Assembly (NCBI RefSeq): GCF_000215935.2
Contig: NZ_AFNU02000006.1
Span: 1-64,000 of the forward strand
DNA from: Haloplasma contractile SSD-17B
GTDB lineage: Bacteria; Bacillota_I; Bacilli_A; Haloplasmatales; Haloplasmataceae
Direction: 5' to 3'
DNA: 64,000 nucleotides
This document shows, piece by piece, positions 1,413 to 17,915 of the stretch (within the stretch, counting starts at the first letter, position 1; each line of letters starts with the position of its first letter). Position numbers and translations under genes: made by a program. The notes beneath the pieces are model-generated. The model saw nothing but the letters and a program-made list of their open reading frames with translations, had not been told where the DNA came from and searched no databases.

Positions 1413-2855
1413 ATGAATGAGTTAATTATGTGGATTATAAAGTGTCTTATTTATAGCCTTGGGTTATATATGGTATATATACTAATATTTGGTGTAATTT
1501 TATTTAAGTTTCATAAGCCTCAGAGGACAAATTATGAAAAAAAGTACACGGTTGAACGATTTTATGGTAAAAAAATAAGTCAAGATCAGGTGCATTTAGT
1601 CGAAGATCGCTATTATGCGAACCAAGTTATGAACAATTTAGTTAATAATGCTGAAAAAAGTATAGATATTGCATACTTTATGCTAAATGATGGACTAGCA
1701 GCAAAAGCAATAACCTTTAACTTAATAAAAGCAGCTGATCGTGGTGTACAGGTACGAATACTATTAGATGGATTAGCAAATAGAGTCTTTAATTCAATAA
1801 AAGAGTATCTATACATATACGCTACACACCCTAATATAACAGTTAAATTTTATGAACCATTCAACCTCTTGAGACCATCAACATGGAATAACCGAATGCA
1901 CGATAAAATAATTATAATTGATGAGTACAACCTAGGGTTAATAGGTGGTCAAAATATAGATGATAAATATCTCACTAGAGATGGCGAAAAGAACATGAAG
2001 TTCAGTGACCGTGATGTAGTGATCGTAAATACTAATTCAAGTAATAAACAGGGTACAGTTATTAACGATATGAAGCACTACTTTGATGTGATTTTTAACC
2101 ATAAGTATTCTAAGGAACCAATTAAAAAATTGACAAATAAGGTTATTCAAAAAGGGAATAAGAAAAAAAGGCAGATTGTGAGCTTTGCAAAAAAGTTAAG
2201 GGTAACAAATCCTGAGCTTTTTAATCTAACGATTGATTGGAATCTACAATCAATTGAAACTAATGGTATTAAGTTTATTTATAATCCAATTACACGACTT
2301 AAAAAAGAGCCATGGTGTTTTATAGATATAGCACGGCTTATTGAGAATGCTAAAAAATCAGTATTAATAGAAAACCCGTTTGTAATTCCTATTAAGCAGA
2401 TGCTAGCAAACCTCTATAAAAATAATGAAAAACATGAAATGACTATATTAACGAATTCATTAGCAACAAATTCGCATGTGTATGCGCATTCTGGCTATAA
2501 AAAATTTAGACAATATATGATAGATAAGGGAACAAAACTCTATGAATATCAGGGAAAGGATATTATCCATGCTAAATCATTTGTTATCGATCAAAGACTT
2601 AGTATTGTGGGTGCCTACAATCTAGATGCAAGAAGTACATACTTGAGTACAGAATCTATGATTGTAATCGATAGCGAAGAATTCGCACAGAAATTAGAAG
2701 ATAAGATTATGAAAAAGATCAATAATAGTCTACAGGTTACCAAGGGAGGATACTCTAAGCATCAAACAGTCAATAAGAAAAAAGTTCCTATATATAAAAA
2801 AGTATTGTCTATTATTTTATATCCCATCTCGTACGTTTTGGATTATATGCTTTAA
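1413..2855 (+). CDS. Phospholipase D-like / cardiolipin synthase family protein
   Basis: A 480-residue membrane-anchored protein of the PLD superfamily. An N-terminal transmembrane helix (about residues 6-30) precedes two HKD catalytic motifs. The first is HDKIIIID near residue 163, followed by GLIGGQN. The second is HAKSFVID near residue 386, followed by GAYNLDARS. Both keep the His, Lys and Asp of HxKxxxxD. The layout matches bacterial cardiolipin synthases (phosphatidyl transfer between two phosphatidylglycerols), but the protein has one rather than two N-terminal helices and an unusually long basic C-terminal tail, so another phospholipase or phosphatidyltransferase activity is possible. 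ATG is preceded by AGAGGAAT. It stands alone and ends at a bidirectional terminator. Confidence 0.8.
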   Translation: MNELIMWIIKCLIYSLGLYMVYILIFGVILFKFHKPQRTNYEKKYTVERFYGKKISQDQVHLVEDRYYANQVMNNLVNNAEKSIDIAYFMLNDGLAAKAITFNLIKAADRGVQVRILLDGLANRVFNSIKEYLYIYATHPNITVKFYEPFNLLRPSTWNNRMHDKIIIIDEYNLGLIGGQNIDDKYLTRDGEKNMKFSDRDVVIVNTNSSNKQGTVINDMKHYFDVIFNHKYSKEPIKKLTNKVIQKGNKKKRQIVSFAKKLRVTNPELFNLTIDWNLQSIETNGIKFIYNPITRLKKEPWCFIDIARLIENAKKSVLIENPFVIPIKQMLANLYKNNEKHEMTILTNSLATNSHVYAHSGYKKFRQYMIDKGTKLYEYQGKDIIHAKSFVIDQRLSIVGAYNLDARSTYLSTESMIVIDSEEFAQKLEDKIMKKINNSLQVTKGGYSKHQTVNKKKVPIYKKVLSIILYPISYVLDYML

Positions 2856-2883
2856 TATACTAAGAGATTTAATATTAATTTTA

Positions 2884-2936
2884 AACAAAAAGAGGTATTC
2901 TCAGTTAAGATAAGATTACCTCTTTTTGTTCGATTT
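2884..2936. terminator. Bidirectional terminator between convergent genes
   Basis: A 14-bp inverted repeat (arms 2884-2897 and 2917-2930) has an A-run on one side and a T-run on the other. It serves both the PLD-like gene on + and the MFS gene on -, whose stop is at 2938. Confidence 0.85.
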
Positions 2937-2937
2937 T

Positions 2938-4302
2938 TTATACAGATATAGCTTCACCAATAGTTGAATCATCATTTACAGGTTTCAAATCATCTTCAGT
3001 CTTAACATCCTGTATTTCCGTTTCAAGATTTCGAAGTCTTGGGTGTAGGTAAAATAATAGACTAGATAGTGACCAAAGTAACCCAATGATGATGAACATG
3101 AGTCCAATTCCTCTACCTTCACCGGTACCTATGACTGAACCTACTGTAGTTGCAAGTCTACCACCATCTACCATCATGGGTTCAAATACATACTCAGCCA
3201 AAGGTCCTACAAATGCATAACTGATTGGCGATAATGACATGGCTACCATGCCAATTAATGAGAAAACACGGCCCTGAACATGTGGTTCAACCTTTGACTG
3301 AAATATAGTTGTACTAATTGCATTAATAATTGGCAAAGTCATAAAGCCTAGACATAGCATAAGGGTTATATAGATAATATTAGAACTTACTCCTGATAAA
3401 GCAAGGAATAAACCACTAATAGATGAAATCATAATTAACCATTTTATACGTTTTTTTGGTGCACCTAAAATACCAATTAGAATGCCACCTAAAACCATTG
3501 CACTCCCGATTATTGCAAAATAAATACCTATAATCGTCTTATTATCTGTGTTTGCCAGGATGTAAGGGGTTATTAATAGGTCGAATGATCCTATTAGTAG
3601 GTTAGTGACTGCAAACAATAATAGCAACCATATTAGTCCAGCACGTTTTGATAAATAGATAAAACCATAACTAATATTTTTAAAGAATACATTAGCAGTT
3701 AATGGTTCTACATTAGGATCTCGTTTAAGTTCTGGGAGCTTAATAATTGCTAGTGTGATGATGGCAAATAAGAAAGTAGCCAAATCAATAATAATTAGAG
3801 GCTTTAATCCAGATGTAAAGAACAGTGCACCTGCAACTAAAGGAGCAATAATAATTCCTATAGCATTCGATAATTGATTAAGACCGTTCGCTCTTGCTAA
3901 CATCTTTTTAGGAACTAAAAGTGGAATTGTAGAATTGTATGCAGGCGATTGAAAAGTACCGAACATAGCCGATATAGCACCGGTGATATAGATATGCCAA
4001 AGCTCAAATTGTCCCGTATATAAAAGCAACAATATAATGGCAGTACATACCGAAGACATACTATCACTTAGGATTAGGATCTGTTTTCTTTTAAAACGGT
4101 CAACTATAACGCCTGCAAAAGGAGATATGATAATTGCTGGTATTGTTGTAGCAATAAAAAAGATTGAGAAACTAAAGATTGATTCAGTATCTTTAAGAAC
4201 CCAAAAACCAATCCCAATTAGTGTTATTTTAGATCCAATTAATGACAATAATTGTCCAAACCATATGAATAAAAATTTAAAAAAATACTGTTCTTGTTTC
4301 AT
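2938..4302 (-). CDS. MFS transporter, MFS_3 / EntS-MefA-like drug or siderophore exporter
   Basis: A 454-residue polytopic protein with about 12 transmembrane segments. The loop between TM2 and TM3 carries the MFS signature GVIVDRFKRKQILILSD. The overall arrangement (NGLNQLSNAIGIIIAP in TM5, long C-terminal cytoplasmic acidic tail) fits the MFS_3 family, which includes macrolide efflux MefA and enterobactin exporter EntS. It probably exports a small molecule by proton antiport; the substrate cannot be assigned. The ATG at 4302 is preceded on the minus strand by GGGGAGGAAT. The gene is monocistronic, with a shared terminator downstream. Confidence 0.85.
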   Translation of the reverse strand: MKQEQYFFKFLFIWFGQLLSLIGSKITLIGIGFWVLKDTESIFSFSIFFIATTIPAIIISPFAGVIVDRFKRKQILILSDSMSSVCTAIILLLLYTGQFELWHIYITGAISAMFGTFQSPAYNSTIPLLVPKKMLARANGLNQLSNAIGIIIAPLVAGALFFTSGLKPLIIIDLATFLFAIITLAIIKLPELKRDPNVEPLTANVFFKNISYGFIYLSKRAGLIWLLLLFAVTNLLIGSFDLLITPYILANTDNKTIIGIYFAIIGSAMVLGGILIGILGAPKKRIKWLIMISSISGLFLALSGVSSNIIYITLMLCLGFMTLPIINAISTTIFQSKVEPHVQGRVFSLIGMVAMSLSPISYAFVGPLAEYVFEPMMVDGGRLATTVGSVIGTGEGRGIGLMFIIIGLLWSLSSLLFYLHPRLRNLETEIQDVKTEDDLKPVNDDSTIGEAISV

Positions 4303-4465
4303 ATTTAATTATTCCTCCCCAAAGTGACACTAACTATCTATAACTGTATGAATCCATTCTCCTGTATATAACCATTTTAGTATAAAAGTGCGCTATAAAT
4401 TCTCGTATTGTGTTGATTTTTCGCAAATAAATAATAAAATTCAAGTGCTTTTTTTATAAAGATGT

Positions 4466-4498
4466 AGAAAAAAAGATGATTCAAATTTAAATCACCTT
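4466..4498 (-). terminator. Intrinsic terminator (minus) of the DUF421 gene
   Basis: Read on the minus strand, AGGTGATT and AATCATCT form an 8-bp stem with one G-U pair, followed by a run of T (the A-run at 4467-4474 on +). It lies just beyond the stop of the YetF-like gene. Confidence 0.65.
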
Positions 4499-4517
4499 AA
4501 TAACTTAAAGCCAAGAT

Positions 4518-5222
4518 TTAATTCTTTGGGTAATCGTCGTACTTTTGTAAATGAAATCCGTATTGTTCTGACCATTCTGCATATAAGACGGTTTTAACAT
4601 TAGTGATATCACGTTGTTGCAAAAGTTTCATGAGCCATTCTCTAGACCGGTTATTTAACGTTTTTAAATGGTCATCTACAATCTGTCCATCGAGTATCAC
4701 GGGTAAATTAATAGATGATTTAGTGTCATCCTCGGAATTGTTATTTTGACTAGTGAAGGCTGATTTTTTCTTAACCGTAATGACACCACTGTTTTCTAAT
4801 ATAGCGTAGTCAACCTCTCTAATCGAAAAGGCATTTTTGTCACGTAACAATCCTAGAAATTCAGTGAAATCTAGTTTTTGTTTAATTAAAACATCGAAGT
4901 TAATTAAACCATCTCTAACCACAAACTCAGGTGCACCTTGTATGATTTTCCGAGCTTTCAACGATTTTAAGGTAATCTTTTCGATCAATAACATTAGTAT
5001 GGTCCATATTGTCACACTATAAATTATATAATAAAAAGGTGTCTTTGGATCATAAATTGCATTACCAACGAGTTCACCTAAAACAAGTGCGGAAATAAAA
5101 TCAAAGGGTGTAATTTGTGACAGTTGCCGATTTCCTATTAGTCTGACACTAATTAACAATAGAACGAATCCTACTGTTAACTCAACTGTTAACTGTCCAA
5201 TAAGAGAATTGAAAAAATTCAT
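4518..5222 (-). CDS. DUF421 / YetF-family membrane protein
   Basis: A 234-residue protein with three N-terminal transmembrane helices followed by a cytoplasmic YetF C-terminal domain. The hallmark N-terminal segment (RLIGNRQLSQITPFDF, then GELVGNAIYD) is clear, and the cytoplasmic domain contains EFLGLLRDKNAFSIREVDYA, typical of the family. An upstream in-frame ATG at 5312 exists, but the ATG at 5222 is preceded by AAGAGGGA at proper spacing and matches the family start, so I chose 5222. Members such as B. subtilis YetF, YdfS and YrbG lack a settled biochemical role; links to spore germination and membrane stress have been proposed. It is a single-gene unit. Confidence 0.85.
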   Translation of the reverse strand: MNFFNSLIGQLTVELTVGFVLLLISVRLIGNRQLSQITPFDFISALVLGELVGNAIYDPKTPFYYIIYSVTIWTILMLLIEKITLKSLKARKIIQGAPEFVVRDGLINFDVLIKQKLDFTEFLGLLRDKNAFSIREVDYAILENSGVITVKKKSAFTSQNNNSEDDTKSSINLPVILDGQIVDDHLKTLNNRSREWLMKLLQQRDITNVKTVLYAEWSEQYGFHLQKYDDYPKN

Positions 5223-6686: not shown

Positions 6687-6715
6687 TTGTCAAATCATAA
6701 ATTCAGTGTTATACT
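6687..6715 (+). promoter_or_regulatory. Sigma-A promoter of the histidine operon
   Basis: TTGTCA (6687-6692) and TATACT (6710-6715) are separated by exactly 17 bases. Transcription would start near 6722, about 65 bases before the leader peptide. A 7-bp inverted repeat (TACTTTA 6730-6736 / TAAAGTA 6743-6749) just after the predicted start might be an operator; that part is speculative. Confidence 0.75.
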
Positions 6716-6786: not shown

Positions 6787-6834
6787 ATGAAAATACAATT
6801 ACAAGAACAAGTTCATTGGCATCATCATTTCTAA
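6787..6834 (+). CDS. hisL: His operon leader peptide (MKIQLQEQVHWHHHF)
   Basis: A 15-codon reading frame starts at ATG 6787 with an AAGGTG ribosome site at 6772-6777 and ends at TAA 6832-6834. Its last six codons read His-Trp-His-His-His-Phe, so four of six are CAT. It lies between the operon promoter and an intrinsic terminator upstream of hisZ, which is the defining arrangement of ribosome-mediated attenuation: low His-tRNA stalls the ribosome on the CAT run. The peptide itself probably has no other function. I found no T-box sequence in this leader, which is the more familiar mechanism for amino-acid operons in Firmicutes. Confidence 0.85.
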   Translation: MKIQLQEQVHWHHHF

Positions 6835-6955
6835 GGGTTTGATTTATGAGTAAAGTCATAGAAACAAGCCCTGTTTCTGATGAGTAAAAATGGACTTGTA
6901 TCTATACGGCATTAATTTTAAGCCATGTAGTATAAGTCTGCATGGCTTTTTTTTA
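6834..6955 (+). promoter_or_regulatory. Histidine attenuator with alternative RNA structures
   Basis: The terminator is AAGCCATG (6920-6927) pairing with CATGGCTT (6941-6948), followed by eight T. A competing helix pairs 6892-6900 with 6931-6939 (9 bp with two G-U); it encloses one terminator arm and uses its loop, so it excludes the terminator and acts as an antiterminator. Upstream, AGGGTTTG (6834-6841) can pair with CAAGCCCT (6865-6872), and AGAAACA/TGTTTCT (6860-6878) form a local hairpin. Segment 6864-6871 can also pair partly with 6892-6899. A ribosome finishing the leader would cover 6834-6841; one stalled on the first CAT codons would leave it free. The pairings are seen directly; the switching order is inference. 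Confidence 0.75.
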
Positions 6956-7583
6956 GTGTGCCGGGCAAGCATAACAACTAGGTGATGAAAGTTCACTGTA
7001 GGGGTTAACCGTGCCAACTACTAGCCGAATGCAAGGGTGTCCATCGCGAGGTGGAATCTGAAGGAAGCGCTAGGCAAAACTCTGGTCCGAGGGATACGAA
7101 TCACATATAAGGCTAGCATAGTTTGGATAAGTCTGCTAAACAAGATGAAGTCCAAAACGGTTCGAAGACTATGAGAGTAAATGTGGCGGATAGATGGAGT
7201 GAAAGTGGTTATGCTTACCCCGGGAGGTCTCATTATTTATACCAAACTCTTATAGTAATATAAGACTGAATAATGAGAAGTCAGCAGATGCCATAGTACT
7301 ATACAATAGTATAGGAAGGGCTGAACGTTAAGTAAGTACATTAATAATACATTCGATGGTATATGTAAAACTACTGACAGACTAGTAAAAGGATGCCTTA
7401 GTATAAATAATGGATGGAATCCTAAAACAACTAAGGATCGTATCAATATACCACGGCATTATTATTAAAGATTGTACGGAAGTCTAGAATAGTCAATGCT
7501 TAATGAACCGCCGAGTACGTGACCCGTATGCTCGGTGGTGTGAGAGGACGACATTCAAATTAATTGAATGTCTCCTACTCGAT
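6956..7583 (+). mobile_element. Group IIC intron without an intron-encoded protein
   Basis: It begins with the GTGTG consensus immediately after the U-run of the his attenuator and ends in CTCCTACTCGAT. Internal landmarks match the bacterial IIC class as I recall it from the Oceanobacillus iheyensis intron: GCAAGGGTGTCC and GGAATCTGAAGGAAGC in domain I, CCCGGGAGGTCT near its end, then GAAGTCAGCAGA and GGAAGGGCTGAACG. Domain V (7505-7540) keeps a CGC triad in AACCGCCGAG pairing with CTCGGTGGT. Domain VI is a 9-bp hairpin (7550-7558/7564-7572). Domain IV (about 7328-7504) is only about 175 bases, with no reverse transcriptase. The ribozyme core looks intact. The exact 3' junction is uncertain by a base or two. 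Confidence 0.85.
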
Positions 7584-7603
7584 TAAAAAAAGGGAGGTAC
7601 TAT

Positions 7604-8584
7604 ATGTTTAAAAAAATTAACGATGAACTCAATTTTATGCAACAAAAGTATGCTTTAGAGCGAGAGTTAGAAGATTTATTCTTAAAAGAGGGATTTAGTC
7701 CGGTAGAGACTTCTTTCTTTGAGGATTATGAATCGTTTAGTTCAATCAACAAAAAATTTAAAAAAGAATCACTAGTTAAGATATTAAATGGCTATGGAGA
7801 TATCATGATTGTACGACCCGATGTAACATCTAATCTTATTAAACGTTATATTCCTCGGTTTAAGGAAGGGTTGAAATTAAAATTATTCTACAATGCAACT
7901 GTCTTTTCAAATAAGATTGGTTTTAATATTCATGAACATAAACAGCTTGGAATTGAGTACCTGGGCGAGAAAAGTGAGCAAGCGAATCATGAAGTGATTC
8001 GTTTAGCACTAAATATTTTAAACCGGTATAATAAAGACTTTATTCTTGAGGTAGGGAATAGCAAGTTTTTATCAAGCCTATTAGAAAAGTTAAATCTTTC
8101 TGAAACGGATGAAGCCTACCTTAGTCAACTATACAATCAAAAAAATAAATATGAACTTGAACAGTTTATTGAGAACCAAAATTTTGATTCTAATGAAAAA
8201 TTATTATTAAAAAGTATCACAAACTTACAGGGAGAATTATATAATTTAGACTCTTTGATCAAACAGCTAAATCAGTTTGAGATAAATGAACAGATGCGTG
8301 AATCTATTGACGAGTTGTTTGCATTAAAAACATACATAAAAGAACAAGGTGAGGACTTACTTAAACATATTTATGTAGACCTAACAATGGTACCTAGATT
8401 CGATTATTATGAGGGGATTGTGTTTAAAGGATTATTTAAACAAGTAAATGAACCAATTCTAACAGGAGGGCGTTATGATGCTTTAACTAGCTACTATGGC
8501 AAAAAAGTTCCAGCCATGGGATTTTCAATCGATCTAGATGAGTTAATGAAATCGGTATACAAGGGGGATCAAGACTATGAATAA
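7604..8584 (+). CDS. hisZ: ATP phosphoribosyltransferase regulatory subunit HisZ
   Basis: A 326-residue paralogue of the histidyl-tRNA synthetase catalytic domain that lacks synthetase activity and forms the hetero-octamer with short HisG, giving it histidine feedback control. Class II landmarks are visible: IMIVRPDVTSNLIKRY (motif 2 region), EHKQLGIEYLG, and the C-terminal LTGGRYDAL with PAMGFSIDLDEL. The start chosen is ATG 7604, preceded by GGGAGG at 7592-7597. An in-frame ATG at 7568 lies inside the end of the intron and would add 12 residues. First structural gene of the operon; it overlaps hisG by 8 bases. Confidence 0.93.
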   Translation: MFKKINDELNFMQQKYALERELEDLFLKEGFSPVETSFFEDYESFSSINKKFKKESLVKILNGYGDIMIVRPDVTSNLIKRYIPRFKEGLKLKLFYNATVFSNKIGFNIHEHKQLGIEYLGEKSEQANHEVIRLALNILNRYNKDFILEVGNSKFLSSLLEKLNLSETDEAYLSQLYNQKNKYELEQFIENQNFDSNEKLLLKSITNLQGELYNLDSLIKQLNQFEINEQMRESIDELFALKTYIKEQGEDLLKHIYVDLTMVPRFDYYEGIVFKGLFKQVNEPILTGGRYDALTSYYGKKVPAMGFSIDLDELMKSVYKGDQDYE

Positions 8585-9218
8585 TGAGATATTAACCATT
8601 GCACTTGCAAAAGGACGATTAGGGAAAGAAGCGTATAAATTATTAAATAAAACAAATCTTGCAAATAATGTTGATTTAAAATCTAGAAAGTTAATTTTTA
8701 ACGATGAATTAAATAGGATTCGTTATTTTTACGTTAAACCAACAGATGTTGTAACGTATGTTTTACAAGGTGTTGCAGATTTAGGGATTGTAGGAAAAGA
8801 TAATATCCTAGAAGAAGCCGGTGATCTATATGAGCTGTTAGACTTAGAGATGGGGGCCTGTAAGTTTTCAATCGCAGGAAAGAAAGGACAACGTGTTTAC
8901 CGTGATGAGGCTTTGAAGGTAGCAACTAAATATCCAAATATAGCAAAAAATTACTTTAAAGAAAAGCAACAGAAAATAGAAGTGATCAAGCTCAATGGTT
9001 CCGTAGAACTTGCTCCATTAGTGGGGTTATCCGATGTTATTGTCGATATTGTAGAGACGGGTAATACATTACGAGCAAATGGTCTAGAAGTACTTGAGGA
9101 TATGTATTCTATTAGTGCGAAATTAATTGCAAATAGAACCAGTTATCGCTTTAAAAAACAAGAAATAGAACTAGTTATGAAACTAATAGCGATTGGAAAG
9201 GGTGAGAGTTGTGATTGA
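8577..9218 (+). CDS. hisG: ATP phosphoribosyltransferase catalytic subunit, short form
   Basis: Catalyses the first step of histidine synthesis, joining ATP and PRPP. At 213 residues it is the short form that lacks the C-terminal histidine-binding domain, which agrees with the adjacent HisZ. Visible features include LTIALAKGRLGKEA at the N-terminus, GVADLGIVGKDN, and the PRPP loop region VELAPLVGLSDVIVDIVETG near residues 140-160. It starts with ATG 8577, overlapping the end of hisZ, and its TGA stop overlaps the start of hisD, indicating translational coupling. The TGA stop also shows that this genome does not use the Mycoplasma code. Confidence 0.95.
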   Translation: MNNEILTIALAKGRLGKEAYKLLNKTNLANNVDLKSRKLIFNDELNRIRYFYVKPTDVVTYVLQGVADLGIVGKDNILEEAGDLYELLDLEMGACKFSIAGKKGQRVYRDEALKVATKYPNIAKNYFKEKQQKIEVIKLNGSVELAPLVGLSDVIVDIVETGNTLRANGLEVLEDMYSISAKLIANRTSYRFKKQEIELVMKLIAIGKGESCD

Positions 9219-10500
9219 AATTATTGAATTAAACAATAACAGCTACTTAATGGAAAAACTAACGAATCGTACTCAATTTGAGTATAAGGAAGTTAATCAG
9301 GTAGTGGAGGATATTATAGAGGAAGTAAAAAATAAACAAGATCAGGCAGTTCGTTATTATACTGAAAAATTTGACTCTGTATCAATAGATGATTTTCTTG
9401 TAGGTGAACGTGAGATAAAACAGGCATTTAAATCAATATGTCCGAAGTTAAAAAGTGATTTGGAACGTGCAAGAGATAATATTCTACTGTACCATAAAGA
9501 GCAACTAACAGAATCTTATACAATTACAAAGGAGAATGCTACTTTATCCCAACGCGTTAGACCTATAGAGAAGGTAGGTATTTACGTACCTGGCGGTAGT
9601 GCGTCGTATCCTTCAACTGTTTTAATGAACGCTATTCCAGCAAAATTGGCAGGGGTTAGCGAACGGATCATGATCACACCACCAAGTAGCGACGGAACCA
9701 TCAAAGACTCAATCCTAGTAGCTGCCAGTTTAGCAGGGGTGACTAAAATTTATAAAATTGGTGGTGCACAGGGAATTGCAGCACTAGCATATGGAACTGA
9801 AACCATTCCTAAAGTATCAAAGATTGTAGGTCCGGGTAATATTTATGTTGCCATGGCAAAGAAAAAGGTTTCGGGCTATGTAGGAATTGACATGGTAGCA
9901 GGACCAAGCGAGATCTTAATCATTGCTGATGAGACGGCTAATCCTGATTATGTAGCGGCAGATTTAATGTCACAGGCCGAGCACGATCCATTAGCAGCAG
10001 CAATCTTAGTTACCGATTCAAATGAATTAGCACTAAAGGTACAAGCGTCACTCAATAGACAAGTCGAAACCTTAGAACGAACCGATATTATTAAACAATC
10101 GTTAAGAGACTATGGTGCTATTGTTGTAACGAAAAATATTACAGAGGCTGTCGATTTAGCAAATGAAATTGCACCAGAACATTTAGAGTTATTGACAAAA
10201 GATCCGTTTACACTTTCCTCAGATATTGTAAATGCAGGGGCTATTTTTATCGGTGAATATACACCAGAGCCCGTTGGTGACTATTTTGCAGGACCTAATC
10301 ATACGTTACCTACTAGTGGTACTGCAAAATTTTCATCGCCTCTCTCTGTTACAGACTTTATTAAGAAGACATCTGTCATTTATTATGATCGTCAGACATT
10401 AGTAGATGCGAAGGACTCAATTATTCGTATTGCGCGTGACGAAGGGTTAACAGCACATGCTAATGCAATAGAAATCCGTTTTAGAAATGAGTTGGAGTAG
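9211..10500 (+). CDS. hisD: Histidinol dehydrogenase
   Basis: NAD-dependent, zinc-requiring enzyme that oxidises histidinol to histidine in two steps. The protein is 429 residues. Diagnostic segments are GIYVPGGSASYPS, GGAQGIAALAYGTE, KIVGPGNIYVAMAKK, DMVAGPSEILIIAD, AEHDPLAAA, APEHLELL and GPNHTLPTSGTA, which carry the zinc and catalytic Gln, His and Glu residues. The start is GTG 9211, with GGTGAG at 9201-9206 upstream; an in-frame TTG at 9193 is further upstream without a better ribosome site. It overlaps hisG by 8 bases, and hisC follows 4 bases after the stop. Confidence 0.95.
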   Translation: MIEIIELNNNSYLMEKLTNRTQFEYKEVNQVVEDIIEEVKNKQDQAVRYYTEKFDSVSIDDFLVGEREIKQAFKSICPKLKSDLERARDNILLYHKEQLTESYTITKENATLSQRVRPIEKVGIYVPGGSASYPSTVLMNAIPAKLAGVSERIMITPPSSDGTIKDSILVAASLAGVTKIYKIGGAQGIAALAYGTETIPKVSKIVGPGNIYVAMAKKKVSGYVGIDMVAGPSEILIIADETANPDYVAADLMSQAEHDPLAAAILVTDSNELALKVQASLNRQVETLERTDIIKQSLRDYGAIVVTKNITEAVDLANEIAPEHLELLTKDPFTLSSDIVNAGAIFIGEYTPEPVGDYFAGPNHTLPTSGTAKFSSPLSVTDFIKKTSVIYYDRQTLVDAKDSIIRIARDEGLTAHANAIEIRFRNELE

Positions 10501-10504
10501 GTTT

Positions 10505-11578
10505 ATGGAGCGTTTAATTAAAAAGAGAGAACCAATCAGCTTAACAAAGAAATCGATTCAAAACTTAATTGCGTATAAACCTAATACGCTACCATACAGG
10601 ATAAAACTAGATGCAAATGAATCAAATCAGTTTTTATTTAATGAAGATCTAAAGATTAATACAAGTAGAATTAATATGTATCCTGATAATTACGCAACTG
10701 ATTTGCGTAATGCAATTAGTCACTATATCGGTGAATCAGCTGATCATATTATAGCAGGTAACGGGTCGAGTGAAATGATTGAATTATTATTCAAGACGTA
10801 CGTGGATAAGAATGATGTTGTGTTTAGTTTCGATCCTAGTTTTAGTATGTACGGCGTCTATAGCCAAATCTATAATGCAGAGTTAGTTAGGATAAAGGCT
10901 AACACTGATTTTAGCGTAAATATTGATGATCTAATTGAACAACTAGAGCGATATACACCAAAGTTAATCTTTATATGTACACCTAATAATCCGACAGGAA
11001 CAGTCGTTAATAAAGTAGATATTAAAAAGTTATTAGATAAAACGGACGCTATAGTGGTAGTTGATGAAGCATATATGGAATTTTTTGACGAATCGGAGTC
11101 AATGGTGTCTGAAATAAAGCAGTATTCGAATCTTGTAGTATTAAGAACATTATCAAAGGCATTTGGTCTCGCTGCGATAAGAGTCGGTTATATGGTTGCG
11201 AGTGCTGAATTAATAGAGATCGCTTACAGAGTTAAATCACCGTACAACATTAACACACTATCACAACTTGTAGCAATAGAAGCATTAAATCAAACCGAAA
11301 AAGTAAAACAGCATGTAAATGACATTATAGTAAGGCGTAATCACTTGTATCGTCAAATGAAAGAACTTGGCATCACTGTGTATCCATCTCATGGTAACTT
11401 TTTATTCTTTAAATATGAATGCGATCAGCTGTATAAGGGTTTAATTAATAAAGGCATTATTATTCGAAAGTTTTCAGGAGAGTTAAATAACCATTACCGT
11501 GTTACGGTTGGTAATGCGTACGAAACGAAACTGTTTATTCAATGTGTAGAGGAGATTTTAAATGATGAGACAATCTAA
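10505..11578 (+). CDS. hisC: Histidinol-phosphate aminotransferase
   Basis: PLP-dependent class I/II aminotransferase that makes histidinol phosphate from imidazole-acetol phosphate and glutamate. The protein is 357 residues. Motifs in order: KLDANES (substrate loop), AGNGSSEMI, CTPNNPTG, VVDEAYMEF (PLP-binding Asp), RTLSKAFGLA (Schiff-base Lys), RVGYMVAS, and the C-terminal HYRVTVGN Arg. ATG 10505 is preceded by TTGGAGTAGG; an in-frame ATG at 10487 inside the end of hisD would add six residues and is less well placed. The 3' end overlaps hisB by 17 bases. Confidence 0.94.
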   Translation: MERLIKKREPISLTKKSIQNLIAYKPNTLPYRIKLDANESNQFLFNEDLKINTSRINMYPDNYATDLRNAISHYIGESADHIIAGNGSSEMIELLFKTYVDKNDVVFSFDPSFSMYGVYSQIYNAELVRIKANTDFSVNIDDLIEQLERYTPKLIFICTPNNPTGTVVNKVDIKKLLDKTDAIVVVDEAYMEFFDESESMVSEIKQYSNLVVLRTLSKAFGLAAIRVGYMVASAELIEIAYRVKSPYNINTLSQLVAIEALNQTEKVKQHVNDIIVRRNHLYRQMKELGITVYPSHGNFLFFKYECDQLYKGLINKGIIIRKFSGELNNHYRVTVGNAYETKLFIQCVEEILNDETI

Positions 11579-12143
11579 AATAGAAAGGAAAACAACAGAG
11601 ACAGAGATTAAAATAAATTTCAACTTGGACGGGAGTGGTCGTGCATCGATAAAGACAGGGATTGGATTTTTAGATCACATGCTTACCTTATTTGCATTCC
11701 ATGGAAACTTTGATTTAGACGTTTATTGTAATGGGGACTTACAGGTCGATGATCACCATACAGTAGAGGACATCGCATTATCTTTAGGTCAGGCATTTAA
11801 ACAAGCATTAGGGGATAAAATAGGAATCAAGCGGTACTCATCTTTATATATACCGATGGATGAGTGTTTGTGTCGAACGGTAATAGATATTAGTAACCGT
11901 CCTCATTTTGTGTACAAGGTTGACTATTCAAGAGAAAGAGTTGGAACGTTAGATACTCAGAATGTTGCTGAATTTTTCAAATCCTTTGTAAACGAGGCAC
12001 GAATCACATTACATATAGAATTATTATATGGTGGGAATGATCATCATAAGGTAGAAGCTATTTTTAAATCATTTGCTAGATGTCTTAATGAAGCGACGAT
12101 GATTGATTCAAATCAAATTCGTTCTACTAAGGGGGTTCTGTAA
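11562..12143 (+). CDS. hisB: Imidazoleglycerol-phosphate dehydratase
   Basis: Dehydrates imidazole-glycerol phosphate to imidazole-acetol phosphate using two manganese ions. At 193 residues it is the monofunctional form with no fused phosphatase, consistent with a separate HisJ at the end of the operon. Metal-binding motifs are visible: TGIGFLDHMLTLFAFHGNFD, DDHHTVEDIALSLG, and in the second half GGNDHHKVEAIFKSFAR. Tandem ATGs at 11562 and 11565 follow AGAGGAGA; I used the first. The stop overlaps the hisH start (TAATG). Confidence 0.95.
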   Translation: MMRQSKIERKTTETEIKINFNLDGSGRASIKTGIGFLDHMLTLFAFHGNFDLDVYCNGDLQVDDHHTVEDIALSLGQAFKQALGDKIGIKRYSSLYIPMDECLCRTVIDISNRPHFVYKVDYSRERVGTLDTQNVAEFFKSFVNEARITLHIELLYGGNDHHKVEAIFKSFARCLNEATMIDSNQIRSTKGVL

Positions 12144-12754
12144 TGGTCACAATTATCGACTATGGAGTCGGGAATCTAGATTCAATAGAGCGTGGATTTG
12201 AACGAGTGGGTATTAAGACAGTAATTTCAAGCGATCATGACGTCATTAAAAATGCTAGTTCACTTGTATTACCGGGCGTTGGTGCATTTAGCGATGCAAT
12301 TGCTGCATTAGAGTCAACAGGGCTGATTCCGCTCATAAAAGAGCACGTAAGACAGAAAAAATATATACTTGGGATTTGTCTTGGTATGCAGTTACTCTAT
12401 GAAACAAGTCATGAATATGGGAAACATAAAGGGTTAGGGTTTATAAAAGGAAGTGTTGACCAATTAACTAGTAATTTAAAGGTACCACATATGGGATGGA
12501 ACTGTTTAGAGATTACAGCCAAGGGAAAAGGAGATCCTTTTTTAAAGTATATAGAAACGGGAGATTATGTTTACTATGTCCATTCATACTACGTAAATTC
12601 AACAAATGAAGAATTACTAGCAAGTACTAAATATGGTGTGAACGTGCCTGGCATAGTAAGAAGTGGTACTGTTTATGGAACGCAATTTCATCCAGAAAAA
12701 AGTGGAGAAGTTGGACTAAAACTACTAAAAGCATACGGGGAGTTGATCAAATGA
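12143..12754 (+). CDS. hisH: Imidazole glycerol phosphate synthase, glutaminase subunit
   Basis: Class I glutamine amidotransferase that supplies ammonia to HisF. The protein is 203 residues. The catalytic Cys lies in GICLGMQLLYE, the His and Glu in GTQFHPEKSG, and the oxyanion strand region in VLPGVGAF. Start and stop overlap its neighbours by 1 base (hisB) and 4 bases (ATGA with hisA), consistent with coupled translation. It works with HisF to make IGP plus AICAR, which is relevant to purH at the end of this operon. Confidence 0.95.
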   Translation: MVTIIDYGVGNLDSIERGFERVGIKTVISSDHDVIKNASSLVLPGVGAFSDAIAALESTGLIPLIKEHVRQKKYILGICLGMQLLYETSHEYGKHKGLGFIKGSVDQLTSNLKVPHMGWNCLEITAKGKGDPFLKYIETGDYVYYVHSYYVNSTNEELLASTKYGVNVPGIVRSGTVYGTQFHPEKSGEVGLKLLKAYGELIK

Positions 12755-13482
12755 TTCTATTACCAGCAATCGATTTATTAGAAAATCAATGTGTCAGACT
12801 GAAACAAGGTGATTACGAGGCTGTGACGGTCTACTCAAATCATCCCGAGGAAATGGCTTTACAATGGGAGCGTGCTGGTGCCGACTACCTACATGTTGTA
12901 GATTTAAATGGAGCAGATCAAGATTTCATTAAAAATAAAGACTCAATTAAAACTATTGTTGAGGCTAGTAATTGTCCTGTACAAGTAGGTGGTGGCATAA
13001 GGGATGAAGCCAGAGTAAAAGAATTATTGGATCTAGGTGTTTCTCGTATTATAGTGGGAACAATCGCGGTTAAAAATCCTGACCTTCTACAAGAACTTGT
13101 AGATAAATACCGCGACCGAATTGTTGTTGGAGTTGATGCTAAAAGAGGTAAAGTAGCAACTCATGGATGGAAGGAAGTCAGTAACTATGAAGCAATTGAT
13201 TTTTGTAAGGATCTCGAATCAATGGGAGTAAAAACAATTGTCTATACCGATATTTCAAAAGATGGTATGTTAAGTGGACCTAATATTAGTGTTTATAAAC
13301 GATTAATAGACGAAACATCGCTAAAAATTATTGCCTCAGGAGGAGTCAGTTCTGTAGAGGACTTATTAACATTACAATCAGTAGGTGTATATGGTGCGAT
13401 AGTAGGGAAGGCATTGTATGAAAACAAACTGAACTTAGAGGAGGTAAAATCATGCTTACAAAGCGAATTATCCCCTGTTTAG
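12751..13482 (+). CDS. hisA: ProFAR isomerase
   Basis: A (beta-alpha)8-barrel isomerase that converts ProFAR to PRFAR by an Amadori rearrangement. The protein is 243 residues. The catalytic Asp in [13 protein letters not shown] and the second Asp in [15 protein letters not shown] are present, as are the phosphate-binding loops [13 protein letters not shown] and IIASGGVSS. The final ten residues extend past the usual end and overlap hisF by 31 bases, a longer overlap than elsewhere in the operon. Confidence 0.95.
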
Positions 13483-14210
13483 ATGTCCTTAACGGTCGAG
13501 TGGTAAAAGGGAAACAATTCACTAATATTATAGATGTAGATGCTCCTGAGAAATTGGGAAAGTTTTATAGTGATAGTGGTGCCGATGAATTGGTGTTCTA
13601 TGATATAACAGCTTCAAATGAAGAGCGTAAGACGTCTTTAGATTTTGTAGGGAAGGTAGCAAGAGAGATTAATATACCATTTTGTGTAGGCGGAGGCATT
13701 CGTTCCGTACAAGATTTCAAGGAGATATTACGAAGGGGTGCTGACAAGGTATCCGTAAACTCTGCAGCCGTAAAAAATCCATCTTTAATAAGAAATGCAG
13801 CATTACGATTTGGTTCTCAGTGTGTCGTGTTATCAATTGATGCAAAGAAAAATGAGAATGGTAACTATGATGTATATGTAAAAGGGGGAAGAGAGAACAC
13901 GGAGCTAGATGCAGTGTCGTGGGCAATAGAAGGTGTTCGATTAGGAGCAGGAGAAATAGTTGTGAATAGTATTGATGAAGATGGTATGAAAGAAGGATAT
14001 AGTATTGATTTATTAAAAAGAATATCAGAACGCGTATCGGTACCGGTTATTGCATCTGGGGGAGCTGGAAAATTAGAGGATTTCTACAGTGTAATTCGAG
14101 ACGCAAATGTAGACGGTGTTTTAGCTGCTTCTGTCTTTCACTTTGGAGAGATTAAGATAAAAGATTTAAAACAATATTTATTTAATAAAGGTGTAAGTAT
14201 ACGAATCTAA
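13452..14210 (+). CDS. hisF: Imidazole glycerol phosphate synthase, cyclase subunit
   Basis: A 252-residue (beta-alpha)8 barrel that uses ammonia from HisH to convert PRFAR into IGP and AICAR. The catalytic Asp residues are in [15 protein letters not shown] and in [13 protein letters not shown]; phosphate loops include [12 protein letters not shown] and VIASGGAGK. The [12 protein letters not shown] start is the standard HisF N-terminus, so the 31-base overlap with hisA is genuine. Its ribosome site GAGGAGG lies inside hisA. A 22-base gap precedes hisI. Confidence 0.95.
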
Positions 14211-14232
14211 AAAATAAAAAAGAGGTGATTTT

Positions 14233-14877
14233 ATGAATTTTGATTTAAAAATTTTAAAATGGAATGAACAGGGGCTAATCCCTGCCATTGTTCAGGAATA
14301 TGACTCAAGAGAGGTACTAATGCTTGCTTATATGAATGAGGAGGCATTAACAAAGACACTATCATCAAAGGTGGCTCATTATTATAGTCGTAGCAGGAAA
14401 GAACTGTGGAAAAAAGGAGAAACATCAGGAAATTTTCAGTTTGTAAAAGAACTCACTTACGATTGTGATGCCGATACAATCCTTCTAAAGGTAAATCAGG
14501 TAGGAGTAGCTTGTCACACAGGTAGTAAAACGTGTTTCTTTAATACTATACCGCTTGAACTAAACGAAGAACCAGAGACGAATATAAAAAAAACACAACT
14601 AAATATATTAGATGATTTATATGAAGTAATTAAATACCGTAAAGGCAATCCGTTAGAGGGCTCATACACCTCTTATCTCTTTGAAAAAGGAATTGATAAG
14701 ATTTTAAAGAAAGTAGGGGAAGAAACAAGTGAAGTCATTATTGGTGCTAAAAATAATGATGAGTCAGAACTTGTTTATGAAATCAGCGACTTAGTTTATC
14801 ATTTACTCGTATTAATGGTCAACCAAAACGTCACACTAGATACAATCGAACAGGAATTAAAGAAGAGGCGAAGTTAA
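14233..14877 (+). CDS. hisI: Bifunctional phosphoribosyl-AMP cyclohydrolase / phosphoribosyl-ATP pyrophosphatase
   Basis: Carries out steps 2 and 3 of the pathway in one chain (hisI-hisE fusion, 214 residues). The N-terminal cyclohydrolase domain (about 1-115) shows [23 protein letters not shown], the zinc ligands in [11 protein letters not shown], and [13 protein letters not shown]. The C-terminal pyrophosphatase domain (about 125-214) shows [12 protein letters not shown] and [15 protein letters not shown] followed by [14 protein letters not shown], the MazG-like metal site. The ATG follows AAAGAGGTG. hisJ follows after two bases. Confidence 0.95.
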
Positions 14878-14879
14878 TT

Positions 14880-15695
14880 ATGTCTACTATAAAACAATTA
14901 ATTGACCATCATGTCCACAGTAATTATTCACCAGACTCTAACACTAGTATGGAACAGATGATTGACAGATGTAAGACGTTAGGTGGTAAAGGAATTATGT
15001 TTACGGACCACGTGGATTATGATTATCCGGATCCACTATTTAAAGATCACGAGATAAACTATAATAAATACACAGAACAGATCAAATCTCTCAAAGAACA
15101 ACATAATATTGACATTCAAATGGGTGTAGAGATTGGCTATCAAAACCACTTAAATGATAAACTAAATCAATTTTTAAAGAAACACCCATTCGATTTTGTT
15201 ATATGTTCACTCCATATGTGTAACAAACTTGATTTTTATAACGGAGATTTCTTTAAAAACAAGACAAAAAAAGATAGTTATATGGAGTATTTACAAGCAG
15301 TTAAAAAAGCAGTATTAATGTATGATAATTATGATGTATATGGTCATCTAGATTATTTGGTTCGATATGCACCCTATAAAAGGAATGAGCTTGAGATTGA
15401 AGAGTTTAGAGAAGCGTTTGACGAGATTTTAAAATTAATTATTGAGAAAGGGAAAGGAATCGAGATTAACACATCAGGTATTCGATATGGTTTAGATGCT
15501 ATGCATCCTAACCGTTCAATTATTAAACGTTACCGAAAACTAGGAGGAGAGATTATTACGATTGGTTCTGATGCACATATCGCTACCGACTTGTATTCTA
15601 ATTTTGATGATGCAATTGAATTACTAAAAGAACTAGGATTTAAAGCAGTAGCACAGTTTAAGAATCGCAAGGTATCCTTTGTCGATTTAAAATAG
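14880..15695 (+). CDS. hisJ: Histidinol-phosphatase, PHP family
   Basis: Hydrolyses histidinol phosphate to histidinol, the missing activity of the monofunctional HisB. The protein is 271 residues of the PHP superfamily, as in B. subtilis HisJ and Lactococcus HisK. Metal-binding motifs are DHHVHSNYSPDS at the N-terminus, FTDHVDYDYPD, a Glu in MGVEIGY, CSLHM, YGHLDYLVRY, and C-terminal GSDAH. Together with HisZG, HisI, HisA, HisHF, HisB, HisC and HisD it completes the pathway. purH follows 66 bases later with no terminator between. Confidence 0.93.
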   Translation: MSTIKQLIDHHVHSNYSPDSNTSMEQMIDRCKTLGGKGIMFTDHVDYDYPDPLFKDHEINYNKYTEQIKSLKEQHNIDIQMGVEIGYQNHLNDKLNQFLKKHPFDFVICSLHMCNKLDFYNGDFFKNKTKKDSYMEYLQAVKKAVLMYDNYDVYGHLDYLVRYAPYKRNELEIEEFREAFDEILKLIIEKGKGIEINTSGIRYGLDAMHPNRSIIKRYRKLGGEIITIGSDAHIATDLYSNFDDAIELLKELGFKAVAQFKNRKVSFVDLK

Positions 15696-15761
15696 AGAGA
15701 ATAACCGAACTTGTCTATAGGATCATTAATATTAGAGCTTAGAGGGAGAAGGTATAGCAAC

Positions 15762-17288
15762 ATGAAGAGAAGAGCATTAATTAGTGTCTATGATAAAACA
15801 AATATTGTTTCATTCGCAAAAGCGTTAATTAAGCATGACTTTGAGATTATTTCAACTGGAGGAACTTATAGTGTATTAAAAGAGGCTGGTATCAAGGTAA
15901 TACCTGTTATGCAGGTTACAGATAGCAAAGAGATTTTGAATGGTCGAGTAAAAACGCTACATCCTGCAATTCACGGAGGAATACTAGCAGTACGTAATGA
16001 CGACCATCACATGGCACAATTAAACGAAGAAAGTATTCACCCTATAGACTTAGTTTGTGTCAACCTATACCCGTTCAGTGAAACAGTTAATAAGGAGAGC
16101 ACCTCATTTAATGAGGCTATAGAGCAAATAGATATAGGAGGACCTACCTTATTACGAGCAGCAGCCAAAAATCATAAGTATGTTACTGTTATTACGGACA
16201 CGAATGACTATCAAAGTGTAATTACGGAACTTAATCAATGTGGAGAAACAACACCTGATACAAGAAGAAGGTTAGCTACAACCGTTTTTTTTCATACTGC
16301 TGATTATGACAGTAAGATTGCAAGCTATCTAAACCAAGAGGAGTTTCCTGAGACGATTACACTCTCATATAAACGAAAGCAAATACTTAGATATGGAGAA
16401 AATCCACATCAGAAAGCTGCACTTTACTCAGATAGTCATATAAATAACACGTTAATTCTTAGGACAAAACAGTTACATGGAAAAGATCTTTCCTATAATA
16501 ACATAAAAGATGCAAACACAGCATCAGATATTATAAATGAATATAGTGCCCCTACTGTGGTGGCACTTAAACACATGAATCCATGTGGTATTGGTTCTGC
16601 TAAAACTATTTATGATGCATGGATAAAGGCATATGATGGCGATCAGATATCTATTTTCGGGGGAATTATAGCAACCAATCAGGTGATCGACCATCAAACA
16701 GCAATAGAAATGGGTAAACTGTTTTTAGAGCTAATCATTGCACCTGGATTTACAGAAGAGGCACTACAACTATTAAAGAAGAGAAAAAATACACGTCTTT
16801 TAGAACTAATTGATGAAAGAAAAGACGAACAATGCTTTAATATTACAACAGTAACTGATGGATTATTGATGCAAGAACAGGATCAAAAGAAAGTCAATTT
16901 AAATCAGTTAGAAATACCAACCAAGAAAAAACCATGTAATGAAGAGTTTGAGCAACTTCTTTTTGCATGGAAAGCAGTTAAACATGTCAAATCTAACGCG
17001 ATAGTTATTGCAAAGGATTCGCAAACGATTGGAATAGGTGCAGGTCAAATGAATCGTGTCGGTGCTGCGGAGATTGCGCTTAGACAGGCAGGAGATAAAT
17101 GTAGAGGGGCGGTATTAGCATCTGATGGATTCTTTCCAATGCCTGATACAGTAGAACTTGCCGTCAAATATGGCATATCATCCATTATACAACCCGGAGG
17201 ATCGATACGAGATCAAGACTCTATAGATGCCTGTAATAAACATGGAATATCGATGGTGTTGACAAAAACACGTCATTTTAAACACTAA
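15762..17288 (+). CDS. purH: Bifunctional AICAR transformylase / IMP cyclohydrolase
   Basis: Final two steps of purine synthesis, AICAR to FAICAR to IMP. The protein is 508 residues. The N-terminal IMPCH domain shows ISVYDKTNIV, STGGT, GRVKTLHPAIHGGIL and IDIGGPTLLRAAAKN. The transformylase domain shows LRYGENPHQKAALY, the catalytic LKHMNPCGIG, FGGIIATN and QPGGSIRDQDS. ATG 15762 is preceded by AGAGGGAGAAGG; an in-frame upstream start at 15711 is not supported. No terminator or promoter separates it from hisJ, so it probably belongs to the his transcript. That makes sense because HisHF releases one AICAR per histidine made. No other pur gene is in the window. Confidence 0.95.
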   Translation: MKRRALISVYDKTNIVSFAKALIKHDFEIISTGGTYSVLKEAGIKVIPVMQVTDSKEILNGRVKTLHPAIHGGILAVRNDDHHMAQLNEESIHPIDLVCVNLYPFSETVNKESTSFNEAIEQIDIGGPTLLRAAAKNHKYVTVITDTNDYQSVITELNQCGETTPDTRRRLATTVFFHTADYDSKIASYLNQEEFPETITLSYKRKQILRYGENPHQKAALYSDSHINNTLILRTKQLHGKDLSYNNIKDANTASDIINEYSAPTVVALKHMNPCGIGSAKTIYDAWIKAYDGDQISIFGGIIATNQVIDHQTAIEMGKLFLELIIAPGFTEEALQLLKKRKNTRLLELIDERKDEQCFNITTVTDGLLMQEQDQKKVNLNQLEIPTKKKPCNEEFEQLLFAWKAVKHVKSNAIVIAKDSQTIGIGAGQMNRVGAAEIALRQAGDKCRGAVLASDGFFPMPDTVELAVKYGISSIIQPGGSIRDQDSIDACNKHGISMVLTKTRHFKH

Positions 17289-17549
17289 CATTAGAATAAA
17301 AAAGGAACTCGTATGACCTCTTAACATCACCGTGAACAATAGGTGAGAGTTGCGCACTAAAGTATATACCTCCGATACATGTATTTATCCTTAGAATATG
17401 AAGGTAGTTTTAATTGTCGATTGAATTGAGCAAGTTATTTTTGTGTAAGAAGAGTAATAAATAGGTCTAAAACTCATGAACATGACCCAACCACCCCTAT
17501 AGTGGAACACATACTCTAATTATGAAATACTATGAAAGGGCTGGGTAAA

Positions 17550-17915
17550 ATGAGGAAAGAGAGTCTATATCGATTTCATGATGATGTTCATTCTCATGAG
17601 GTAGAAATACGGTTTAATAACGGCGACTCCGTTCATGATCATCGTATGACCGGAGCAACTTCTTATGATTTAGGTCATGAGCATAAGTATGATACATCAA
17701 CTGATATGAGTGCTAATGTAACAGGGCACACGCATCAATACTTTGGTGTCACAACTGTTGATGCTAAACACCAACATGAGATGAGAGGACAAACAGGACC
17801 TGCTATCTATAATTCGAATGGAAGCCATTATCACGAGTATATTGGAGAGACATCGACTAATGGTAGTAGACCCCATGTTCATCAATATATGGGTAAAACT
17901 AAGTCTAGAAAATAA
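17550..17915 (+). CDS. ymaF: Histidine-rich YmaF-family protein
   Basis: A small protein of 121 residues with 15 histidines arranged mostly as HxH pairs in repeats of the form HxHxY-x-G-x-T (for example GHTHQYFGVTT, SHYHEYIGET, PHVHQYMGKT). This is the pattern of the YmaF family, whose role is unsettled; metal binding is plausible from the composition. I chose ATG 17550 because GAAAGGG lies at good spacing; an ATG at 17532 lacks a ribosome site. It follows the his-purH operon by about 260 bases and ends at a strong terminator. Confidence 0.8.
   Translation: MRKESLYRFHDDVHSHEVEIRFNNGDSVHDHRMTGATSYDLGHEHKYDTSTDMSANVTGHTHQYFGVTTVDAKHQHEMRGQTGPAIYNSNGSHYHEYIGETSTNGSRPHVHQYMGKTKSRK

Follow-up and report, generated by a model that had tools for sequence, protein, structure and literature searches.

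The interval 6956–7583 of the window (the whole 64,000-nt stretch analysed here, on contig C6 of a 3.4-Mb genome from the Haloplasma family) holds a group IIC intron that is ordinary in itself but unusually and informatively placed, directly behind the attenuator of a his operon. We consider it probable, at roughly three in four, that the intron landed at this attenuator, is transcribed on read-through at histidine shortage and is then either spliced or kept in the 5′ untranslated region (UTR). The intron and its immediate surroundings comprise the following features.

6952–6955, + strand: IBS1 (TTTA)
6956–7583, + strand: ORF-less group IIC intron, 628 nt
7040–7214, + strand: main domain I–III match (RF02001, 143.9 bits)
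7137–7140, + strand: EBS1 (TAAA), complementary to IBS1
7244–7321, + strand: RF01998 match (70.6 bits), interpreted as the portion of domain IV that binds the maturase
7507–7539, + strand: domain V, with CGC triad and G–U wobble, AT bulge and intact stem
7542–7583, + strand: domain VI, including the 3′ splice site and a candidate branch A (7577)
7592–7597, + strand: Shine–Dalgarno (SD) sequence of hisZ, outside the intron
7604–15695, + strand: hisZ-hisG-hisD-hisC-hisB-hisH-hisA-hisF-hisIE-PHP phosphatase operon

The boundaries given in the original prediction proved right to the base. The element opens with GTGTG at 6956 and closes with ..CTACTCGAT (..CGAT) at 7583, in agreement with the 5′ GUGYG and 3′ AY ends of group IIC introns, and both domain matches were returned by an Rfam scan of the window. 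The RF02001 score is the highest among the three copies in the genome, and domains I–III, which are of IIC type, could be aligned with those of other RF02001-type introns from Bacilli. We take the RF01998 match as a part of domain IV that was retained despite loss of the ORF. Beyond what had been predicted, 6956–7583 contains no ORF; a maturase remnant in domain IV was sought and rejected (tblastn best E = 1.7). Folding of the whole intron RNA beats that of shuffled sequences (z = −5.6). Exon recognition involves a short EBS1:IBS1 pairing only (UAAA:UUUA). The terminator hairpin (6920–6948) and U-run are followed by A6955 as the last exon base and then by the intron, which thus starts one base after the U-run, within the one or two bases anticipated.

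Upstream of the intron, the leader is composed of these elements.

6687–6715, + strand: promoter-like site of the his leader, TTGTCA-17-TATACT, with an extended −10
6787–6834, + strand: leader peptide MKIQLQEQVHWHHHF plus stop, with four His codons (6814, 6820, 6823, 6826), identified by reading and by homologous leaders
6834–6841, + strand: segment A (AGGGTTTG), pairing with B (folding)
6864–6872, + strand: segment B (ACAAGCCCT), with near-invariant GATACAAGCC in relatives
6890–6907, + strand: segment C (..GGACTTGTATCTAT..), 5′ strand of the antiterminator, with near-invariant CTTGTATCTAT
6920–6948, + strand: attenuator terminator hairpin, seven of eight pairs covarying across 18 leaders
6947–6954, + strand: terminator U-run

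The peptide spans 15 codons from 6787 and includes the run HWHHHF. The 5′ arm and loop of the terminator (6921–6937) can alternatively pair with segment C to form the antiterminator, and by folding the two structures are mutually exclusive and set by ribosome position. With a ribosome at the first His codons, 9.0 antiterminator pairs were predicted versus 2.4 terminator pairs; with the ribosome at the leader stop, these values were 2.9 and 7.5; and the untranslated leader, free of ribosomes, formed the terminator only (10.0 pairs). Folding of the attenuator lies far above that of shuffles (z = −7.1). The attenuator is real, and chance is excluded for both it and the intron. Its type is not new, similar his attenuators having been described in Erysipelotrichales and Peptostreptococcaceae (PMC9413887). 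The leader had no match at E ≤ 5 to the proteobacterial His_leader family (RF00514), to which it is not assigned, and a scan of the window locus matched its type to no other Rfam family.

A genome-wide search with a pattern of the two conserved strands recovered the leader, complete with its His-codon peptide, both conserved helices and the covarying terminator, in 17 other genomes, distributed over Haloplasma, Acholeplasmataceae, Izimaplasma, Terrisporobacter, Clostridium, Fusobacteriaceae and Vulcanibacillus. Their peptides contain three to five His residues. In the alignment of all 18 leaders, 97% of cells pair. Seven of the eight terminator pairs show changes on either side of the helix, whereas helix B:C hardly varies, which would be expected were each of its strands to engage in further pairings. 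The leader with near-invariant GATACAAGCC...CTTGTATCTAT occurs across genomes of Bacillota and Fusobacteriaceae (window 6787–6954, loci L138–L155). An intron after the U-run was absent from all 17 other leaders, including that of a member of the same family, Haloplasma contractile MAG B5_bin.1; where sequence is available, only a short spacer separates the U-run from the following gene. As the original prediction had proposed, comparison with intron-free relatives defined the empty site: the spliced window, GGCTTTTTTTTA^TAAAAAAAGGGAGG, matches GGCTTTTTTTACTTAAAAAACAAGGAGG of this nearest relative. Since no other leader carries the intron and the empty site matches, the insertion is most simply read as a derived event in the lineage of the window.

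These comparisons, together with EBS1/IBS1 complementarity, strongly support the claim that a his attenuator served as landing site. A group IIC retroelement would have used the attenuator DNA as its target, reading the terminator stem-loop as a structure while EBS1 (UAAA) paired with the four terminal bases of the exon (TTTA). The genome has two further introns of the IIC type, on contigs C5 and C1, and these share the geometry, all three copies reading hairpin + TTTA / GTGYG ... CTCGAT / T. Both lie directly behind a terminator. The C5 intron (1,890 nt) encodes an intact maturase of 424 amino acids (TIGR04416, 422.7 bits), while the C1 intron is ORF-less with a broken domain V. The latter (~5048–5660 of L036, G000:C1:3000–14000) follows the terminator of a pyruvate-oxidoreductase-like gene, which is split into two ORFs (1423–4155 and 4249–4998) and adjoins a second copy. 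A second group II-type reverse transcriptase, of a different type, was noted at L031 (G000:C2:412623 region; GIIM, 23.4 bits); its frame of 350 amino acids may be incomplete.

Group IIC (C-type) introns are known to insert behind terminators and to be rarely transcribed (PMC8919778). We surveyed 74 introns with a readable 5′ end from 395 genomes of the class Bacilli; a search at phylum level yielded members of this class only. A hairpin with T-tail preceded 70 of them, compared to 23 of 370 control positions, in agreement with published surveys (PMC8919778). EBS1:IBS1 pairing covaries across these introns and averaged 3.53 of four pairs versus 2.05 when EBS1 was redealt, with none of 2,000 shuffles as good. 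Most introns (61/74) lie ≤170 nt from the stop codon of a same-strand ORF; the other 13 are preceded by tRNA genes (three), a CRISPR-like array, an SRP RNA, sequence of unclear nature or, in two cases, a leader: that of the his operon, with its attenuator, and one located ahead of cysE in genome G030. Among these 13, the window intron and eleven others (all but L045) had no known riboswitch or T-box upstream at Rfam gathering scores. Landing behind a hairpin is therefore ordinary for group IIC; the attenuator context is not, and the his attenuator is the only well-supported regulatory attenuator among the 74 sites.

The G030 leader is one further candidate for an intron behind a regulatory leader, although regulation by its terminator is not claimed. 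At L077 (G030:C1:452933–457800), a maturase-bearing IIC intron with its 5′ end at 1117 follows the leader terminator upstream of cysE. The conserved leader of ~130 nt comprises a promoter, a GGGGAAGA motif, a hairpin and the terminator; a second promoter before cysE is possible, as judged by eye. In seven congeneric relatives, leader and cysE are both present and the intron is absent. A T-box assignment was rejected (no Rfam T-box match at E ≤ 10), and the terminator matched no relevant Rfam family. G030 holds 20 further copies (26 in all) with the same geometry by inspection and no known riboswitch or T-box upstream at gathering scores; two of these without a near gene end, L188 and L193, were dismissed as additional leader cases, one having a transposase gene downstream and the other lying inside a coding sequence. 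In this 2.5-Mb genome, the 26 introns on G030:C1 lie mostly on the + strand in the first half and on the − strand in the second, suggesting a replication-strand bias.

In the window, the intron is followed by ten same-strand genes (hisZ, G, D, C, B, H, A, F, IE and a gene for a PHP-family phosphatase), as predicted, with exactly 20 bases (7584–7603) between its end and the hisZ ATG at 7604. The leader promoter-like site is the last one on the + strand before 7823: a promoter scan, which does not extend to other sigma factors, found none on that strand between 6716 and 7822. With no such site from the leader promoter up to hisZ, read-through is the expected source of intron RNA, and gating of its production by histidine shortage is the best reading of the sequence. 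The anatomy and folding of the leader lend support to the original inference that the intron is transcribed only under these conditions; given leaky termination, the gate need not be tight. The leader would operate by ribosome-position attenuation. With histidine available, the terminator would form and transcription would stop ahead of the intron. A ribosome stalled at the first His codons would instead let segment C pair with the terminator 5′ arm, and polymerase, freed by this antiterminator, would continue through the intron into hisZ. The precursor would then splice or persist with a 628-nt insert in its 5′ UTR. That the operon mRNA carries a ribozyme, as had been proposed, accordingly holds for unspliced but not for spliced RNA. 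The operon would be expressible either way: the hisZ ribosome-binding site lies outside the intron and the predicted SD accessibility is 0.55 unspliced versus 0.25 spliced, so that expression need not depend on splicing. Further downstream, a purH-like gene lies within ~16–60 bases of the operon end (window 15695–17288) with no terminator-like site between, and the transcript may therefore hold eleven genes. A gene for a short histidine-rich protein is located at 17532–17915.

Whether the intron splices bears on a possible, if somewhat unlikely, alternative, namely that it landed but no longer splices or moves and is an inert 5′ UTR spacer, tolerated because the hisZ ribosome-binding site lies outside. 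The lack of both ORF and maturase remnant would fit such a relic, and the higher SD accessibility of unspliced RNA means that selection for splicing may be weak. The ORF-less sister on C1 with its broken domain V demonstrates that decay does occur in this genome. Close inspection of domain V, degeneration of which would have spoken against the original prediction, yielded a more favourable picture: the stem, CGC triad, G–U wobble and 2-nt bulge are intact, and relative to C5 the stem shows compensated changes (TA/TA to AG/CT), an argument for selection on the RNA. The domain V–VI model RF00029 gave no match to the his-leader copy at E ≤ 5, against 43.5 bits for the C5 copy, and the domain V loop is one base longer than in introns of other genomes, both of which count towards decay, but the maturase-bearing C5 copy has the same longer loop. 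Also retained are the 5′ end, EBS1, the RF01998 part, domain VI and the 3′ end, in addition to the strong RF02001 score. In bacteria, introns that lack an ORF are usually accompanied by a maturase, which may act in trans (PMC4424553). A class-C maturase is missing from the his-leader copy and encoded intact by the C5 intron; its product, for which the closest solved chain is the IIC retroelement protein 7uim, could be the candidate acting in trans, and the inserted copy would probably rely on it. From these sequence features, the his-leader intron appears likelier able to splice than not.

Splicing after read-through poses a conflict, since IIC introns use the terminator stem-loop for 5′ splice site recognition (PMC7161350) and the same stem-loop must be melted for polymerase to pass. 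Intron bases 3–8 (GUGCCG, 6958–6963) are complementary to leader positions 6907–6912 (CGGCAU), enclosing the terminator hairpin, and in folding this pairing favours the stem-loop by ~3–8 kcal/mol once the intron is being transcribed. With ~10 intron bases made, the terminator conformer is favoured at equilibrium even with a stalled ribosome. Equilibrium folding thus resolves the conflict in the model; the strong form of this conflict, in which antiterminator formation would remove the exon stem-loop and thereby prevent splicing, was not supported at equilibrium, and a kinetic effect of the antiterminator on splicing may still exist. The same complementarity could be taken to mean that the intron was co-opted, its 5′ end or splicing modulating the leader and the ribozyme forming part of the his switch. 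We consider this very improbable: a six-base match can arise by chance, intron bases 3–8 emerge only after polymerase is beyond the termination point, and with the intron in one genome only there is no conservation to draw on. Least probable of all is that the intron or its flank supplies a promoter by which operon or intron escapes attenuation; domain IV is AT-rich, but the scan described above found no + strand promoter-like site.

The persistence of class-C introns has been attributed to terminators that all but silence them (PMC8919778). An attenuator-landed intron transcribed on read-through would be a natural exception, as its gate opens on a known signal. One stem-loop would then act as a terminator, as a landing site in the DNA and as the element by which the 5′ exon is recognized, and the splicing rate could in addition depend on the attenuator state. 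This single locus makes it testable whether retroelement transcription and mobility are tied to amino-acid shortage, and whether a stem-loop melted for read-through is also the 5′ exon recognition element for splicing. That IIC introns occasionally land behind regulatory terminators and become nutrient-responsive retroelements, with RNA, splicing and mobility on demand when the attenuator opens, is a speculative generalization that we regard as rather unlikely; the intron-occupied cysE leader of G030, intron-free in seven relatives, would suggest that such landings recur.

The literature searched, with partial coverage, yielded no description of a group II intron located downstream of an amino-acid attenuator. 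In Clostridioides difficile, a c-di-GMP riboswitch is coupled to a group I intron, which as here places a ribozyme intron in a regulated leader. That system involves a group I intron and allosteric coupling of aptamer and splice site; such coupling is not claimed for the his-leader intron. Firmicutes His leader-peptide attenuators (PMC9413887, PMC2965389) share the His-codon peptide and alternative antiterminator and terminator hairpins before his genes; the present leader differs by its intron, absent from 17 homologous leaders, and belongs to a type without Rfam match in our scans. The Eubacterium rectale IIC intron–maturase retroelement (7uim; PMC10190682), nearest to the C5 maturase among solved chains, likewise recognizes a DNA stem-loop located 5′ to where it inserts, whereas the his copy itself encodes no maturase. 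Closest are the group IIC introns behind intrinsic terminators (PMC8919778, PMC4424553; Robart et al. 2007, cited there), which represent the same ribozyme class with GTGYG/CTCGAT ends, likewise inserted one to a few bases after the U-run and with a four-base EBS1/IBS1 pairing. Compared to their usual sites, the terminator used by the ORF-less his copy is not that of a gene end but a regulated attenuator in an operon leader.
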